Made by a program: the position numbers and the translations under genes
In this document: positions 50,060 to 62,947 of the stretch, piece after piece
How the letters are laid out: each line of letters begins with the position of its first letter
How positions within the stretch are numbered: the first letter of the stretch is position 1
The notes under the pieces: model-generated
Databases searched by the model: none
What the model saw: only the letters and a program-made list of their open reading frames with translations
Told to the model about the DNA's origin: nothing
Source: an uncultured Roseicyclus sp.
Lineage (GTDB): Bacteria; Pseudomonadota; Alphaproteobacteria; Rhodobacterales; Rhodobacteraceae
Assembly (NCBI GenBank): GCA_947500415.1
Contig: CANMRT010000003.1
Location: 558,001 to 622,000 of the forward strand
Length of the DNA: 64,000 bases
Direction of reading: 5' to 3'

Positions 50060-50890
50060 TCACCCGCCGGTCAATGCCCGCCATTCGGCCTGAAACCCCG
50101 GCAAATCAATGGCGAAACGCCTTTGGATCATGGGGGCGATTTCATCGTCAGGGACCGGCACCGGCTGCGCCGCGCCAAAGGGTGTGCGCGCATCATTGTG
50201 GTCGTGATCACCGCGGATGAACATCACGGAATCGGTGAGGTTCACAAACGGCACCCGCGCCCAGATCTTGTGGTGCGGAAAATCCATCACGATGGCCTCG
50301 TCGTCGGGCTTTAGATAGATCGCCAAACCCGCCGACCAACAGTGTGTGTTGAGGACCTGGGGTTTGATCTGCCCGTCCTCTATGGCCTCCAACACCACGC
50401 CCTTGCCATGATCCAGCGCGACGCGACCCGCGAAATTGGCAAGACGCCCAACCTTGTTCCAACTGCGCCGCAATTGCTGCACGTAGTCGACCGCCACGGC
50501 GTCATCATCATCCAACCGGAACTCGGCGACCACGGACCGTGTCCCGTCGCGCCCGCCCCACATCACATCGCGGCAAATCGCACGATGATCCCCCGGTTCG
50601 CGCCAATGGGCCTGCACCTGCGGGCAATCGGCAATCGCCGCCTCAACCCGGTCACGCCACGGCTGGGGTAAATCCTCCCCCAACAGCAGATGCATGGTGA
50701 AATCACTGTCGGTTTGCGCCCTGAGCGGCGGCATGAAGATATGCTCGAACCACAGCGTCCGCTCATCCAGCCGTTTGGATGCATAAAGCGCCGCACGCCG
50801 CTCCTCCAGACTCTCGTGGTATTTCTTGAACCCGCCAGTGCAGGGGAATGAGAACCGACACAGGCCCTGAATTTGCACACCCTCAGCCAT
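50060..50890 (-). CDS. Putative rhamnosyltransferase-family glycosyltransferase
   Basis: A 276-residue protein of the 'putative rhamnosyl transferase' family (PF11316-like). It opens with CRFSFPCTGGFKKYH, has the FEHIFMPPLRAQTDSDF segment, and carries an aspartate cluster RLDDDDAV that would bind the metal and nucleotide sugar in a GT-A-like fold. The true donor sugar is unknown. It overlaps the EamA gene upstream by 8 nt and is a paralogue of the gene at 51746, with which it shares the motif order. It lies between rpoC and the str promoter. Confidence 0.85.
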   Translation of the reverse strand: MAEGVQIQGLCRFSFPCTGGFKKYHESLEERRAALYASKRLDERTLWFEHIFMPPLRAQTDSDFTMHLLLGEDLPQPWRDRVEAAIADCPQVQAHWREPGDHRAICRDVMWGGRDGTRSVVAEFRLDDDDAVAVDYVQQLRRSWNKVGRLANFAGRVALDHGKGVVLEAIEDGQIKPQVLNTHCWSAGLAIYLKPDDEAIVMDFPHHKIWARVPFVNLTDSVMFIRGDHDHNDARTPFGAAQPVPVPDDEIAPMIQRRFAIDLPGFQAEWRALTGG

Positions 50891-51749
50891 GCTTCACCTG
50901 TCTTTCGCGGATCAACGTGAACACGCCGGTTGCCACCACAATCGCTGCACCCACGAGGGCCAGTTTGTTTGGGAATTCAGCAAAGACAAACCACCCTGCA
51001 ACCAGTGCAAACACAAGCGACGTATAGCGGAACGGTGACGTGACCGCGACCTCGCCCACGCGCATCACAAGGATGGAGAAGACGTAGCCGCCGATGATGA
51101 ACAGCGATGCCATGCCAATCAGCGCATAATGCGTTGGCTTGGGCCTTACCCATTCTTCGGTCAGCGACATGATCCCACCGAACACACAAATCGCAGCGGC
51201 GGCAATGACCGCAACAGTCATGGTTGGCAGCTCAGGCGAAAAGCCACGGGTTGCGAGATCGCGCCCCGCCACCAGAACAACCGTCGCCAAAGCCAGAAGC
51301 GAGTAGATGTTGAACCCTTCCGCCCCCGGCTGCACGATCAAAATCACACCGAACGCCCCCACGCAGATAGCGCTCAACCGTCGCCAGCCGACCGCTTCAC
51401 GAAACAGGAACGCCGCGCCCAATGTCACGGCCAAAGGTAACGCCGACAGGATGGCAGTTGCATTGGCGATCTGCATATTGATCAGCGCGGTCAGGAAGGT
51501 CACAAGCGCCGCGATTTCGAACAACGTCCGCAACGCCAGCTTGCCCCTGTCCCCTCGTGGGATACGGAAGCTCAGCTGGCCAAAGGCCGCAACCGTGGCA
51601 GTCAGAAGAATCGTCGTCAGCACGCTGCGTAGAAAGACGATCTGAAATAGTGGCAGGTCGTCGGCCAATACCTTGATCGCCACGTCGTTCATCACGAACG
51701 ATGCCATCGATCCCATCATGAAAAGCGCGCCCTTGAGGTTCGGCGTCAT
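50883..51749 (-). CDS. EamA/DMT-family transporter
   Basis: A 288-residue inner-membrane protein with ten predicted helices formed by two EamA repeats (about residues 5-137 and 150-283). The drug/metabolite transporter superfamily exports small metabolites. It overlaps both flanking glycosyltransferase-like genes (ATGA with 51746, 8 nt with 50060), so a substrate connected to glycan synthesis is possible but not shown. Confidence 0.92.
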   Translation of the reverse strand: MTPNLKGALFMMGSMASFVMNDVAIKVLADDLPLFQIVFLRSVLTTILLTATVAAFGQLSFRIPRGDRGKLALRTLFEIAALVTFLTALINMQIANATAILSALPLAVTLGAAFLFREAVGWRRLSAICVGAFGVILIVQPGAEGFNIYSLLALATVVLVAGRDLATRGFSPELPTMTVAVIAAAAICVFGGIMSLTEEWVRPKPTHYALIGMASLFIIGGYVFSILVMRVGEVAVTSPFRYTSLVFALVAGWFVFAEFPNKLALVGAAIVVATGVFTLIRERQVKHG

Positions 51750-52642
51750 GCGTCGTCGCCGTCTGCCATATCCCTGCGCGCTTCATTTGCCAGCTTGCGC
51801 GCCATGCCAGAGCCTTCTTCCTGCAACTTGTCCATCATCGGCAAAAGCCGCTTCGGGTTCAGGCCAAACCGCTCCCGGAACAACTTGCGCGCCTGCCAGA
51901 GCGGCAAAGGCCGTGCGCCGGGCGGGATTGAGCGGTCACTGTCGTTGTGCCCATGCAAGGTACGCACAAACATATACTCATGCGGGTCAATCCAGCACCG
52001 GGCGTGACACGCGAGCTTACGGTGGTTCCAGCGGTAGATGTTATGCTGGCTGTCCGGGTGGTGGATCATGGCGGAGGCGAGGCCCAAGGGCTGCGGTTCC
52101 GAGTAGTCCCAGAACTGATCCTCATCACGCTTCATGTCCCAGTAGATGCCGCGGTGAAAGCAGACGGCGGCTGGCGTCTCAGCCGTCGCCCAATTCATCT
52201 TGATCAGGCTGTCCGAAATCTCACGCGTGCGCTCGATGTAGTCGATGCCAACTGCATCATCATCGTCCAGTCGGAACCCGGTAATGAAATCCGCCTCTTC
52301 ATCCAGACCCCGCCGAAACGCGCGGCGCGTGGAATTCAGCGGCCCCGCCGCCTCCAACGTGCAAATCCGCAAGTAGGGATGCTTCTCGGCCAACCGCTTC
52401 AGGCGCTTACGGAAATGGAAGGGCATCGTGTCGCCGATCAACGCAACCAATACGAAATCGGGGTCCGTCTGAGCATCCAGCGACGGCAGGCAAATGTTCT
52501 CGAAATAGGCAAACCGGCGCTGCATCCGGCCCGGCGCATACAGCTCACGAGCGGCCTCTTCCGGCCCGCCTTTCAACGTGCGAAAGCCAGCGTCCCCAAG
52601 GTAGGAGAAGCGGCACACGCCGATGATCTTGTTCACTGCCAT
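51746..52642 (-). CDS. Putative rhamnosyltransferase-family glycosyltransferase
   Basis: A 298-residue paralogue of the product at 50060. Shared features are CRFSYLGDAGFRTLKGG at the start, FENICLPSLDAQTDPDF, and the metal-binding RLDDDDAVGIDY. A basic/acidic C-terminal helix (KLANEARRDMADGDDA) is extra. It is the first gene of a three-gene overlapping set. Cytoplasmic, no signal peptide. Donor and acceptor are unknown. Confidence 0.86.
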   Translation of the reverse strand: MAVNKIIGVCRFSYLGDAGFRTLKGGPEEAARELYAPGRMQRRFAYFENICLPSLDAQTDPDFVLVALIGDTMPFHFRKRLKRLAEKHPYLRICTLEAAGPLNSTRRAFRRGLDEEADFITGFRLDDDDAVGIDYIERTREISDSLIKMNWATAETPAAVCFHRGIYWDMKRDEDQFWDYSEPQPLGLASAMIHHPDSQHNIYRWNHRKLACHARCWIDPHEYMFVRTLHGHNDSDRSIPPGARPLPLWQARKLFRERFGLNPKRLLPMMDKLQEEGSGMARKLANEARRDMADGDDA

Positions 52643-53496: not shown

Positions 53497-56400
53497 TTAC
53501 TCCGCCGCGTCACCCTCTGCAGGCGTTTCGGCTTCCGCCTCCACCACCTCTGGTGCAGCCAGTGCTGCGGCTTGTGCCGCGGCAGCCTGCTGTTCTTCGA
53601 TCACAACCATGTCGCGAGTCTTTGCGATACGCTCCACGTGCTGGGTCGCACCACCGGTGCCCGCCGGGATCAGGCGGCCCACGATAACGTTTTCCTTAAG
53701 GCCGACCAGCTTGTCCCGCTTGCCCTGAACCGAAGCTTCGGTCAGCACGCGCGTGGTTTCCTGGAACGACGCCGCCGAGATGAACGACCGGGTCTGGAGC
53801 GAAGCCTTGGTGATGCCCAGAAGGATCGGCTCGCCCTGTGCCGGACGACGACCATCAGCGATGGCCTTCTCGTTGGCCGCATCGAATTCGGCCTTGTCGA
53901 CATGCTCGCCCTTCAGAAGCGTGGTTTCACCAGAATCCTGGATCTCCCACTTCTGAAGCATCTGACGGACGATGACCTCGATGTGCTTGTCGTTAATCTT
54001 CACACCCTGAAGGCGATAGACGTCCTGCACCTCGTCGATCATGTAATCGGCCAGCGCCTCGACACCCATAACCGCAAGAATATCGTGCGGGGCCGGGTTA
54101 CCGTCCATGATGTATTCACCCTTTTGGATGAAATCACCTTCGGCGACTGGGATGTGCTTGCCCTTGGGCACCATGTATTCCACGGGCTCTTGGCTTTCAT
54201 CCGCAGGCACAATTGCGATGCGACGCTTGTTTTTGAAGTCGCGACCGAATTTCACGTAACCATCTTTCTCAGCGATGATGGCGTGATCCTTTGGACGACG
54301 GGCTTCAAAGAGTTCGGCCACACGCGGCAGACCACCGGTGATGTCCTTCGTCTTCGCCCCTTCACGCGGGATACGCGCAATAACGTCACCGGCTTCGACC
54401 GTCTGGCTGTCTTCGATGGACAGAATGGCGTCGACCGACATCGTGTAGGTGACCGGGTTGCCCTGATCGTTGCGCATCGGTTCACCGTCTTCACCCGCGA
54501 TGATGATCTCGGGCTTCAGCTCATTGCCTTTGGGGGCCGTGCGCCAATCCGAGACGATCTTCTGGGTCATGCCGGTTGCATCATCGGTCTCATCCCGGAG
54601 CGAGATGCCCACGGTCAGATCAACGAATTTCGCGTTACCGGAGGCTTCGGCGATGATCGGCAGGGTGTAGGGGTCCCATTCGAACAGGCGATCGCCACGG
54701 GCGATGTCCTGCCCGTCGGTCACCAGAACGTTGGTGCCGTACCCAAGCTTGAACGAGGCACGCTCGGCGCCCTGCTCATCCACCACGGCCAACTGCATGT
54801 TGCGGCCCATAACAACCGTTTGGCCGTCACGGTTCTTCAGCAGGTTGGCGTTGCGGAATTCGATCTTGCCTTCAACGTTGGCTTCTTGGAACGACTGCTG
54901 GCCACCTTGGGCAACGCCGCCGATGTGGAACGTCCGCATCGTCAGCTGTGTGCCCGGCTCACCAATCGACTGCGCCGCGATGATGCCCACGGCTTCACCC
55001 GTGTTCACCTTCGTGCCGCGTGCCAGGTCACGACCGTAGCAAGTCGCGCAGACACCCTCTTCCGCCTCACAGGTGAGGGGAGAGCGCATCTGCATCGTGG
55101 TCACGCCAGCCTGTTCAACCGCGTCGGCCTTGCGTTCGTCGATCAGCTCACCTTTGGCGACAATCACTTCATCGGTGCCCGGAACCAGAACGTCTTCTCC
55201 GGCCGTACGGCCCAGAATGCGCTCTGCCAGCGAAGCCACGACTTCACCGTCGTTCACAGCGGCCTCGGCCTTGATCGTCAGCTCAGTTCCGCAATCGTCC
55301 ATACGAACGATGCAATCCTGTGCCACGTCCACAAGACGACGCGTCAGGTAGCCCGAGTTCGCCGTCTTCAACGCCGTATCCGACAGACCCTTACGGGCGC
55401 CGTGGGTAGAGTTGAAATACTCAAGAACAGTCAGACCTTCCTTGAAGTTCGAGATGATCGGCGTCTCGATGATTTCACCGTTCGGCTTGGCCATCAGGCC
55501 GCGCATACCACCCAGCTGCTTCATCTGAGTGACCGAGCCACGCGCACCGGAGTGGGCCATCATGTAGACCGAGTTCGGCTCCATCTCGGACCCATCCTCT
55601 GCACGCTTGGCAGCCGAGATTGTGCCCATCATGGCGTCGGTGACCTTGTCGTTGGCTTTCGACCAGGCATCGATGACCTTGTTGTACTTCTCACCCTGGG
55701 TGATCAGACCATCCATGTACTGCTGTTCGAATTCCTTCACCTGACCGCGCGTATCATCGACCAGTTCCCACTTGTCGTCCGGGATGACCATGTCATCCTT
55801 ACCGAACGAGATGCCAGCCTTGAACGCTTCGCGGAAGCCCATCGTCATGATCTGGTCGCAGAAGATGACCGACTCTTTCTGACCGCAATAGCGGTAGACG
55901 GTGTCGATGACCTGCTGCACCTCTTTCTTCCGCAGAAGACGGTTCACCAGATCAAACGGAGCCTTGGCGTTGAGTGGCAGAAGCGCGCCCAAAAGCACAC
56001 GGCCCGGCGTGGTTTCAAACCGCACCATGACCTCGTTGCCTTCCTCATCGATCTGGGGAAGACGCGCGTGGATTTTGGAGTGCAAGTGAACTTCGCCTGC
56101 ATCCAGCGCGTGACGCACCTCGTCGACATCCGCGAAGATCATACCTTCGCCGACCATGCCCTCACGCTGGAGGGTCACGTAGTAGAGGCCCAGGATCATG
56201 TCCTGCGACGGAACAATGATCGGCGCGCCGTTTGCAGGCGACAGAACGTTGTTCGTCGACATCATCAACACGCGGGCTTCCAACTGTGCTTCCAGCGACA
56301 GAGGTACGTGCACAGCCATCTGGTCGCCGTCGAAGTCAGCGTTGAACGCCGAACAGACCAGCGGGTGAAGCTGGATAGCTTTACCTTCGATCAGCACGGG

Positions 56401-57723
56401 CTCGAATGCCTGAATGCCAAGACGGTGCAGCGTGGGCGCACGGTTCAGCAGAACCGGATGCTCACGGATCACTTCGTCCAGAATATCCCAAACTTCGGGA
56501 CGCTCTTTTTCGACCAGCTTCTTGGCTTGCTTCACGGTCGAAGACAGACCTTTGGCCTCAAGCCGCGAATAGATGAACGGCTTGAACAGCTCCAACGCCA
56601 TCTTCTTCGGCAAGCCACACTGGTGCAGCTTCAGCTCAGGACCTGTCACAATCACCGAACGGCCTGAGAAGTCGACGCGCTTACCCAAAAGGTTCTGGCG
56701 GAAACGACCCTGCTTACCCTTCAGCATGTCCGACAGCGATTTCAGCGGGCGCTTGTTGGCACCTGTGATCACGCGGCCACGACGGCCATTGTCGAACAGA
56801 GCGTCGACGGATTCCTGCAACATCCGCTTTTCGTTACGGATGATGATGTCCGGCGCGCGCAGCTCAATCAGGCGCTTGAGGCGATTATTCCGGTTGATCA
56901 CGCGGCGATACAGATCGTTGAGGTCGGACGTCGCAAAACGGCCACCATCCAGCGGCACCAGCGGGCGCAGCTCTGGCGGGATGACCGGAACAACGGTCAG
57001 AACCATCCACTCGGGCCGGTTTCCGGACTCAAGGAACGACTCAACGATCTTCAGACGCTTGATGATCTTCTTCGGCTTCAGCTCACCCGTCGCTTCCTTG
57101 AGGTCTTCGCGCAGGTTCTGCGCCTCGGACTCAAGGTCAATCTGGGACAGCATCTCGCGGATGGCTTCCGCACCGATGTTCGCCTGGAAGGCATCGGCGC
57201 CATAGGCATCCTGCGCATCCATGAACTCTTCTTCCGACATCAACTGACCGTATTGCAGGTCGGTGAGGCCGGGCTCGATCACCACGTAGTTCTCGAAATA
57301 GAGGATCCGCTCCAGATCGCGCAGCGTCATGTCCAGCATCAGGCCGATGCGGGACGGCAGCGACTTGAGGAACCAGATGTGCGCGACGGGTGCTGCCAGC
57401 TCGATATGGCCCATCCGCTCACGACGGACCTTTTGCAGCGTGACTTCCACACCGCATTTCTCGCAGACAACGCCGCGATACTTCATCCGCTTATACTTGC
57501 CGCAAAGGCATTCGTAATCCTTGATCGGCCCGAAGATACGGGCACAGAACAGGCCATCACGCTCTGGCTTGAACGTCCGGTAGTTGATCGTCTCGGGCTT
57601 CTTGATCTCACCATAGGACCAGCTGAGGATACGCTCAGGGCTCGCCAGCGATACCTTGATCTCGTCAAACGCCTTGGGTGGCGTCAGCGGGTTGAACGGG
57701 TTGTTTGTCAGTTCCTGGTTCAT
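53497..57723 (-). CDS. rpoC: RNA polymerase subunit beta'
   Basis: The 1408-residue largest subunit of RNA polymerase. The N-terminal zinc ribbon ([20 protein letters not shown]), the catalytic [12 protein letters not shown] aspartate triad, the bridge helix/trigger loop region and the second zinc site ([13 protein letters not shown]) are all intact. The C-terminus is alanine/glutamate-rich. Its ATG overlaps the stop of the inserted glycosyltransferase-like gene by 4 nt (ATGA) instead of following rpoB. Confidence 0.99.
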
Positions 57724-58630
57724 TCGGAAACCTCCGTCGAAGTGGCTTGGGTGCCGGGCGTGACCCCAGGCCGAGATTTGAACCGCTTAGCAAGCGACCG
57801 ACCAAGTCTTTGGCCGGTATATTTAGCGCCCGCAGCGATGTAACTGTCGAAGCCGCAATACTGTCGACGCAATTGCGACAGCAGCGGCGAGTTAGGTAGA
57901 TGTTGACGCGTCACAAGCCTGCCGTTGATCTTGCCGCGCGCAGAGAAGCCATCTTTCCAAGTGGGCCAAATGCCTTCGAACATATAGTGGTCTTCGTCAT
58001 CGCCCTCTGCAGGGGTCTCAAATTCCCAAGGGTTTGAAATACCCTTGGCCCTTTTGTCAGCAATGACGTCTTCGAGATGCTGAATTTCCCACGTGGCGGA
58101 AACCAGGCTGTTCTTGAACTCGCAATGCTGCGGGAACTTGACCAACCGCACCGGGCCCTCTTTCAGAACCCCGTTTTCTTCCCATTCGCCGTAACGAAGC
58201 GGGCCGCCTTTTGGGCAGGGCCAGATCATCGCCATGAACTTCTTGTCATGGGACCGCAGCAAGTCTTGCGCCTGGGCCACAACGACCTCGTCAACCGGTG
58301 CGAGTGGGCACAAATCTTCCAGCATAAGGAACACATGACGCGCCGACGGCACGCGATGCCGGACCTCGGCCACCGCAGCTTCAAGCAACTCGACAAAGGA
58401 CAAGCCGGGTCGCCTGATGACCTCGGAATCGTCCCAGTCACCGTCCGTTACGACGATGGTCCGGGGGCGGCCCGGCCAGAACAGGTCGAGGTTGCGCAAG
58501 ACGTTGGGGATATACCCCTCCATCTGCTTCCACGTCAGAACGAGTAAGACAGTATCATCCGTCCAATCGCCCGACGCCGAAGCTGGCTGCGCATCCATCA
58601 ACACTGACTGGGGAATATACGCATCCGCGC

Positions 58631-58634
<4 letters not shown>
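57720..58634 (-). CDS. Glycosyltransferase-like protein encoded between rpoB and rpoC
   Basis: A 304-residue cytoplasmic protein without signal peptide or membrane helix. The first half reads like a GT-A-type sugar transferase: a start strand [37 protein letters not shown], and then the acidic motif [10 protein letters not shown] in the position where such enzymes carry a metal-binding acidic pair. The second half ([27 protein letters not shown]) is unfamiliar, and the tail is basic. The assignment is by motif only. The start is a GTG overlapping the rpoB stop (GTGA) and the stop overlaps the rpoC ATG (ATGA), so it is embedded in the polymerase operon and must be co-transcribed with both subunits. 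Confidence 0.8.
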
Positions 58635-62770
<4,136 letters not shown>

Positions 62771-62947
62771 GTTCGATCGCACCTTTCTTTATCGCGCGTC
62801 GCTCTCGCCGCCGGGGCCTCGGCGGAGCGCTCGCAAGATAATAGACGTAGCGGATCAATCTGTTTGCCGTCCCACCGACAAAGCCCGACCCTGTGCCACC
62901 GCCTAAGAAAATGCCCTTTCGCGTAGGGCGCTTTCTAAGACGACGAT

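Follow-up and report, generated by a model that had tools for sequence, protein, structure and literature searches.

In bacteria, few gene pairs are considered as stable as rpoB-rpoC. Integron cassettes and tRNA islands are hot spots where one site holds changing cargo. A search of open-licence PMC papers returned nothing on genes placed between rpoB and rpoC, and the available part of PMC3305630 mentions neither gene. The closest described systems at the level of the individual junction are overlapping gene pairs, which couple their translation by termination-reinitiation, as set out in the available portions of PMC6728339 and PMC10666635.

Here we describe a gene, X, which separates rpoB from rpoC in a window of 64,000 nucleotides (the whole stretch of DNA that was analysed). 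X, its flanks and its sequence signals are as follows:

57720..58634, minus strand: X, a 304-aa probable glycan glycosyltransferase gene (open reading frame and homologue alignments)
58631..62782, minus strand: rpoB, whose stop overlaps the start codon of X (coordinates and Pfam RNA polymerase beta)
53497..57723, minus strand: rpoC, whose start overlaps the stop codon of X (coordinates and Pfam RNA polymerase beta')
58308..58322, minus strand: LEDLC, X codons 105-109, part of a conserved LEDL(C/A)PL.PVD stretch (alignments, counted from the start codon)
58639..58647, minus strand: Shine-Dalgarno-like stretch preceding the X GTG, within the 3' end of rpoB (-7.0 kcal/mol with the anti-SD)
57729..57737, minus strand: strong rpoC Shine-Dalgarno (SD) sequence, containing GGAGG, in the X 3' end (-10.2 kcal/mol)

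The minus-strand order is rplJ, rplL, rpoB, X, rpoC, with the genes for L10 and L7/L12 upstream (named by Pfam). The GTG of X (58634-58632) shares bases with the rpoB TGA (58633-58631), giving a 4-nt overlap, and its TGA runs into the rpoC ATG as ATGA, giving another, so X (304 codons plus stop) fills the rpoB-rpoC gap. Stop-start overlap on one strand, the criterion for translationally coupled pairs, is present at both ends of X. A preliminary description of the locus had both overlaps, the 304 codons and all coordinates correct, and the strand, which it left unstated, is minus. It also took X to be a real gene without space for its own promoter, which agrees with our finding 0 sigma-70-like promoters in 57500-58900 (a weak test, as shuffled sequences give 0.5). 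X has a single copy in its own genome (next match E 0.16), a normal G+C of 0.58 and an ordinary codon usage of 0.48; four nearby genes have 0.48-0.57, and rpoB and rpoC have 0.73-0.74, but both belong to the reference set.

The preliminary description proposed checking the rpoB-rpoC gap of relatives. X-like genes lie there in four other genomes with intact flanks, including that of a named isolate, Ruegeria meonggei CECT 8411. Chance or an assembly fault is an unlikely source of X because its homologues are 29-42% identical, invariant residues are common to the copies, the polymerase genes are intact and those four other genomes hold X-like genes in the same place. Assembly artefact was rejected on the strength of the intact flanks and independent genomes.

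At the family level, X comprises six loci: the window, L004/L139, L005/L138, L137 (R. meonggei), L142 and L003/L136 (XHP0102). The rpoB-rpoC gap houses the first five, while L003/L136 lies in a polysaccharide locus and adjoins gmd (GDP-mannose dehydratase). Only the window copy, among the five in the slot, has both overlaps. X starts in the rpoB stop in two of the five: the window and L005, the latter without reaching rpoC. In L137 there is a 1-nt overlap with rpoC, and L004 and L142 overlap neither flank. LEDL is conserved in six X copies, as is a TDG with D, Q, E or A as the next residue; either might serve as a metal-binding DxD-type motif, and the LEDL(C/A)PL.PVD stretch may have a catalytic role. 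Departures from LEDL occur in L137, L159 (LEDH) and L160 (QEDY). The R. meonggei slot gene (L137, 4264-6861) is an 865-aa frame of three fused X domains, the first two of which have lost LED.

X is rare: it occurs in 4/394 family genomes and 3/292 order genomes (own genome included in both, and the order sample overlaps with the family sample), and there was no match among 7 searched congeners. Searches beyond the family sample were pattern-limited. A scan of GTDB-220 contigs with X as a single query found no relative, and a second scan with a four-member alignment gave 4 matches, the new one being R. meonggei CECT 8411; the named relatives from this second scan are Rhodobacteraceae, and one MAG is labelled Alphaproteobacteria only, which suggests a Rhodobacteraceae-type genome for the window itself. 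A set of 385 class genomes added a further two matches of greater divergence: L159, which immediately follows gmd at the end of a contig, and L160, a weak relative (E 2.5e-4) near ffh-rpsP. The L160 gene (3-1341) is preceded by a partial copy of itself, and the adjacent ffh and rpsP-like ribosomal genes were named by eye.

Across the genome sequences surveyed, the rpoB-rpoC gap is recurrently occupied by cargo in Rhodobacteraceae, which is our main result and was invisible to the preliminary description. The survey drew 130 genomes from the family sample (30 initial loci plus 100 fetched; the rpoC 5' motif matched in 285/394) and counted a gap of 200 nt or more as cargo. The gap was 43-129 nt in 117 genomes and 205-877 nt in 13, so 13/130 carry an extra gene. 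In the window's genus, 4/13 genomes have cargo (window included) and 9/13 have a gap of 72-111 nt. Three kinds of cargo occur within this genus: the window has X, L144 and L153 have a small membrane-type protein, and L146 has another small protein, of exported type.

Joining at the rpoB stop is common among these genes. An ORF of at least 90 codons starts in the rpoB stop in 9/13 survey cargo genomes (ORFs starting there reach at most 77 codons in the other 117), and it also ends in the rpoC ATGA in five of the 13, as well as in the window and L146. The double 4-nt overlap is common to slot genes L006, L009, L045, L079, L135 and L146. No overlap ORF reaches 90 codons in four of the 13 survey cargo loci (L013, L101, L118, L129). 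TGA serves as the rpoB stop codon in 11/13 cargo genomes vs 46/117 others (Fisher p=0.0024).

The cargo beyond X includes sulfotransferases, a hexapeptide protein, coiled coils and small exported proteins. L106 matches Pfam Sulfotransfer_3 above the cut-off; the L101 fragment falls just below it and is 33% identical to L106. L112 matches Hexapep, and the small slot proteins gave no Pfam match above the cut-off. By eye, L004, L104 and L118 share a coiled-coil ORF, and L118 and L129 share one of a second kind. Using a crude export test (a 13-residue hydropathy of 1.8 or more close to the N-terminus), 10/21 cargo genes look exported or membrane-like (L006, L009, L013, L024, L045, L104, L135, L144, L146, L153); X fails this test. 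None of ten slot or X-family proteins had a PADLOC defence match, so we set aside X as a defence gene.

Homologous cargo recurs in distant genomes (BLAST) in four cases: X, L101 with L106, L006 with L146, and L135 with L144 and L153. Queried against 394 genomes, the L135/L144/L153 group gave two matches, G188 (which is L135) and G184 (new and also in the slot). The group counts as one independent case because its other members came via the slot. Families that may live mainly in the slot are represented by four of the five X loci found from the window copy and by the sole new locus (G184) of this second family. The G184 slot gene (L162, ~1499-1790) has a frameshift near its end relative to L153.

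The neighbouring junctions of the same operon provide a comparison. We examined the rplJ-rplL-rpoB region of 40 genomes, 3/40 of which had no recognisable rplL. There were no rplJ-rplL insertions in the 35 genomes measured besides the window, and the rplL-rpoB gap was 905-1450 nt in 3/37 genomes measured besides the window. Two of these gaps hold Pfam GT4 genes (L195 507-1550 on the reading strand, and L224 340-1464), and the third holds a 156-aa ORF without a Pfam match (L215 953-1423, reading strand). Insertions thus occur at rplL-rpoB as well, though not at every junction, which means that permissiveness is not limited to the rpoB end, and the idea of a slot unique to rpoB-rpoC was discarded. 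Elsewhere in the window, between rpoC and rpsG-fusA-tuf (50060-52642), are an EamA transporter gene and a pair of PF11316 (Rhamno_transf) genes, with overlaps of 8 and 4 nt between them; these are more sugar-related genes in the polymerase/ribosome cluster.

The SD sequence at the rpoB 3' end may account for the slot's tolerance of new genes. Its median strength is -9.5 kcal/mol in 17 cargo loci and the same in 126 loci with a gap <200 nt, compared with -3.2 kcal/mol for 500 random rpoB positions, 1.4% of which are equally strong. The signal is strong with or without cargo, and the start signal is therefore probably older than the cargo. The window's SD for X (-7.0) is weaker than the -9.5 median. 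A ready start codon is also frequent: rpoB ends in GTGA in 38/117 cargo-free survey genomes, where a GAG-TGA ending supplies the GTG. Downstream, the preliminary description suggested that rpoC translation may depend on ribosomes finishing X. This is possible, but coupling need not be obligatory because rpoC has its own strong SD inside X, so the dependence may be partial.

X is probably a glycosyltransferase, judging from the gmd neighbours of its relatives, a link to a Parabacteroides O-antigen locus, the LED motif and the GT4 genes in the rplL-rpoB gap. Its most likely role is to move a sugar onto a surface glycan, as two relatives adjoin the GDP-mannose dehydratase gene. The neighbours of L136 are gmd and an FkbM gene (Pfam), with fcl, GT2 and acyltransferase genes named by eye. 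A surface-glycan gene would be expected to have relatives in polysaccharide loci, and this is where L136 and L159 are found, with L160 near ffh-rpsP instead. The Parabacteroides O-antigen link takes two steps, both weak (E 2.5e-4 and 3e-4), via L160, whose best match is an unannotated phage record (E 2e-14).

The preliminary description was more specific, suggesting from motifs that X is a GT-A sugar transferase. Sugar transfer remains the best reading given the gmd neighbourhoods, but the GT-A assignment found no convincing family, profile or PDB match. X has no Pfam family above the cut-off and no NCBIfam match, none of L137, L142, L005, L136, L159 and L160 has a Pfam glycosyltransferase match, and a PDB sequence search with the X family gave chance-level matches only. 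With hhalign, X scored 25.7 against an untrimmed GT2 set (P 0.017; six non-GT sets scored 11-18), 17.1 against trimmed GT2 domains and 11-14 against the GT25 and PF11316 sets. Remote homology to GT2, GT25 or PF11316 was therefore rejected, as nothing held up with Pfam or hhalign.

Our preferred reading is that X is a working cargo gene in a recurrent Rhodobacteraceae slot within rplJL-rpoBC, and we give this proposal, including each of the following steps, a probability of about 0.55. First, the slot would be permissive, with the SD in the rpoB 3' end and the frequent GAG-TGA ending providing a ready GTG, such that an ORF joined at the rpoB stop would be translated at once. Second, the operon would tolerate X, which reaches the rpoC start and holds the rpoC SD in its 3' end. 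Third, homologous recombination within the conserved rpoB and rpoC sequence on either side would swap slot alleles (native spacer or cargo gene). Fourth, X would put sugar on a surface polysaccharide, with its synthesis in step with the polymerase and hence with growth. Gene transfer agents of the order Rhodobacterales could carry such slot pieces. Two points lower our confidence in the slot explanation, and in the broader reading of an exchangeable site given below: the double overlap is confined to the window copy among the X genes, and most of the second slot family came to light via the slot.

The third step competes with vertical descent, i.e., slot genes that are old and were lost many times, leaving scattered survivors. 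On a FastTree tree of 146 genomes, built without support values from ~1 kb of rpoB (654 nt in the case of L004), the 21 cargo genomes require at least 18 changes, which counts against descent, as does the presence of X in only 4/394 family genomes. No X genome is within the five nearest neighbours of another X genome on this tree. A similar spacer of 72-75 nt (by eye) is found in five of nine cargo-free congeners, an outcome hardly to be expected from independent deletions, and cargo genomes are interspersed among them. Allelic replacement in the flanks therefore appears to fit better than repeated clean deletion. Descent draws its strength from the X copies, which at 29-42% identity are too diverged for recent exchange, and from the L144-L153 pair, whose cargo dS of 0.32 is near the rpoB dS of 0.35 and so fits an old event or shared descent. 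We consider descent somewhat unlikely overall. L144 and L153 also have rpoB-tail and rpoC-start variants in common beside their same cargo. The native spacers of congeners L147, L149, L150, L152 and L154 contain a G+C-rich inverted repeat (by eye).

For allele swapping around X itself, the rpoB tail has a suggestive, sequence-level pattern that may be a recombination footprint. In the last 150 nt, the window is 77-78% identical to L144, L152, L147 and L153 (partly due to a tail indel), while the preceding rpoB intervals are 91-97% identical to L144 and L152, and the last interval is 95% identical to L143 and L150. The dip in rpoC 5' identity next to X is also present in some cargo-free pairs. 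Within one genus (L143-L155), the rpoB C-terminus takes the form EGGIAAE or AEGEE, and the window has the short form while its nearest congeners have the long form.

Alternatively, a slot gene could be a passenger, i.e., a self-preserving insertion of little benefit whose 3' end is now the rpoC translation start region, making clean loss hard. Cargo is varied, often small and without family matches; L137 has lost the LED motif in 2/3 of its X domains; and in G184 the frame from the overlap start terminates precisely in the rpoC ATGA despite its late frameshift. All of these would suit a passenger. We nevertheless judge it unlikely that this describes the slot: X keeps its invariant residues across deep divergence, the same families recur in the slot, and dN/dS was 0.27 for one 90-codon cargo pair.

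That the gap is where a mobile element inserts, with the rpoC 5' end duplicated in the manner of an attachment site, is distinctly improbable. It would explain the drifting, partial rpoC 5' copies (36-54 nt) next to inserted ORFs in L004 (2389-2442 and 2715-2768) and L118 (~544-579), whose best local scores of 94 and 56 exceed the maxima of 33 and 31 from 100 shuffles. However, no copy rose above shuffles in the other 19/21 cargo gaps, no recombinase was found among the gap ORFs scanned with Pfam (a scan that covered part of the small ORFs), and X has no match in phages, plasmids, PHROGs or viral contigs, which also led us to reject X as a phage or plasmid gene.

Lastly, the notion that X modifies or assembles RNA polymerase, hence its position between the subunit genes, is very improbable: the preliminary description had offered it and the position speaks for it, but it gained no support, as the other slot genes are unrelated proteins, 10/21 with an export-like hydrophobic N-terminus by the crude test, two X relatives outside the slot adjoin gmd and other glycan genes, and the 7 searched congeners have no X match.

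The working-cargo reading of X can be extended, tentatively, to the junction as a whole. The rpoB-rpoC junction would then be an exchangeable cargo site in an essential operon, combining a start signal at the rpoB end, allele swapping and resident gene families, and its surface-modifying or exported cargo would be made in proportion to RNA polymerase, perhaps altering contacts with phages or hosts. If about one in ten genomes of a large family place varied genes at this junction, rare genes can use an essential operon as their expression platform with no obvious machinery of mobile elements. The slot would also offer a testable case of growth-coupled expression of surface enzymes, and it draws attention to unnamed gene families overlooked by family-model annotation.

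Compared with known systems, X resembles the surface-polysaccharide glycosyltransferases (GT2, GT25 and PF11316 Rhamno_transf) in the genomic company of its two relatives outside the slot and in having an acidic motif after a hydrophobic stretch, but it differs in having no sequence relation to them detectable by Pfam or hhalign. Like integron cassettes and tRNA islands, the slot has one site and changing cargo, with border copies in two loci. Unlike those hot spots, it lies inside an essential operon, usually holds one gene, has no recombinase among the scanned ORFs and lacks the border copy in most loci (it is present in 2/21 gaps). The termination-reinitiation pairs, as far as the available portions of PMC6728339 and PMC10666635 describe them, are like X in their 4-nt ATGA/GTGA overlaps, shared direction and lack of an intergenic promoter. 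The X slot differs from them in that its middle gene varies between relatives while the host genes stay, and in that the window's downstream gene, rpoC, keeps a strong Shine-Dalgarno sequence of its own.
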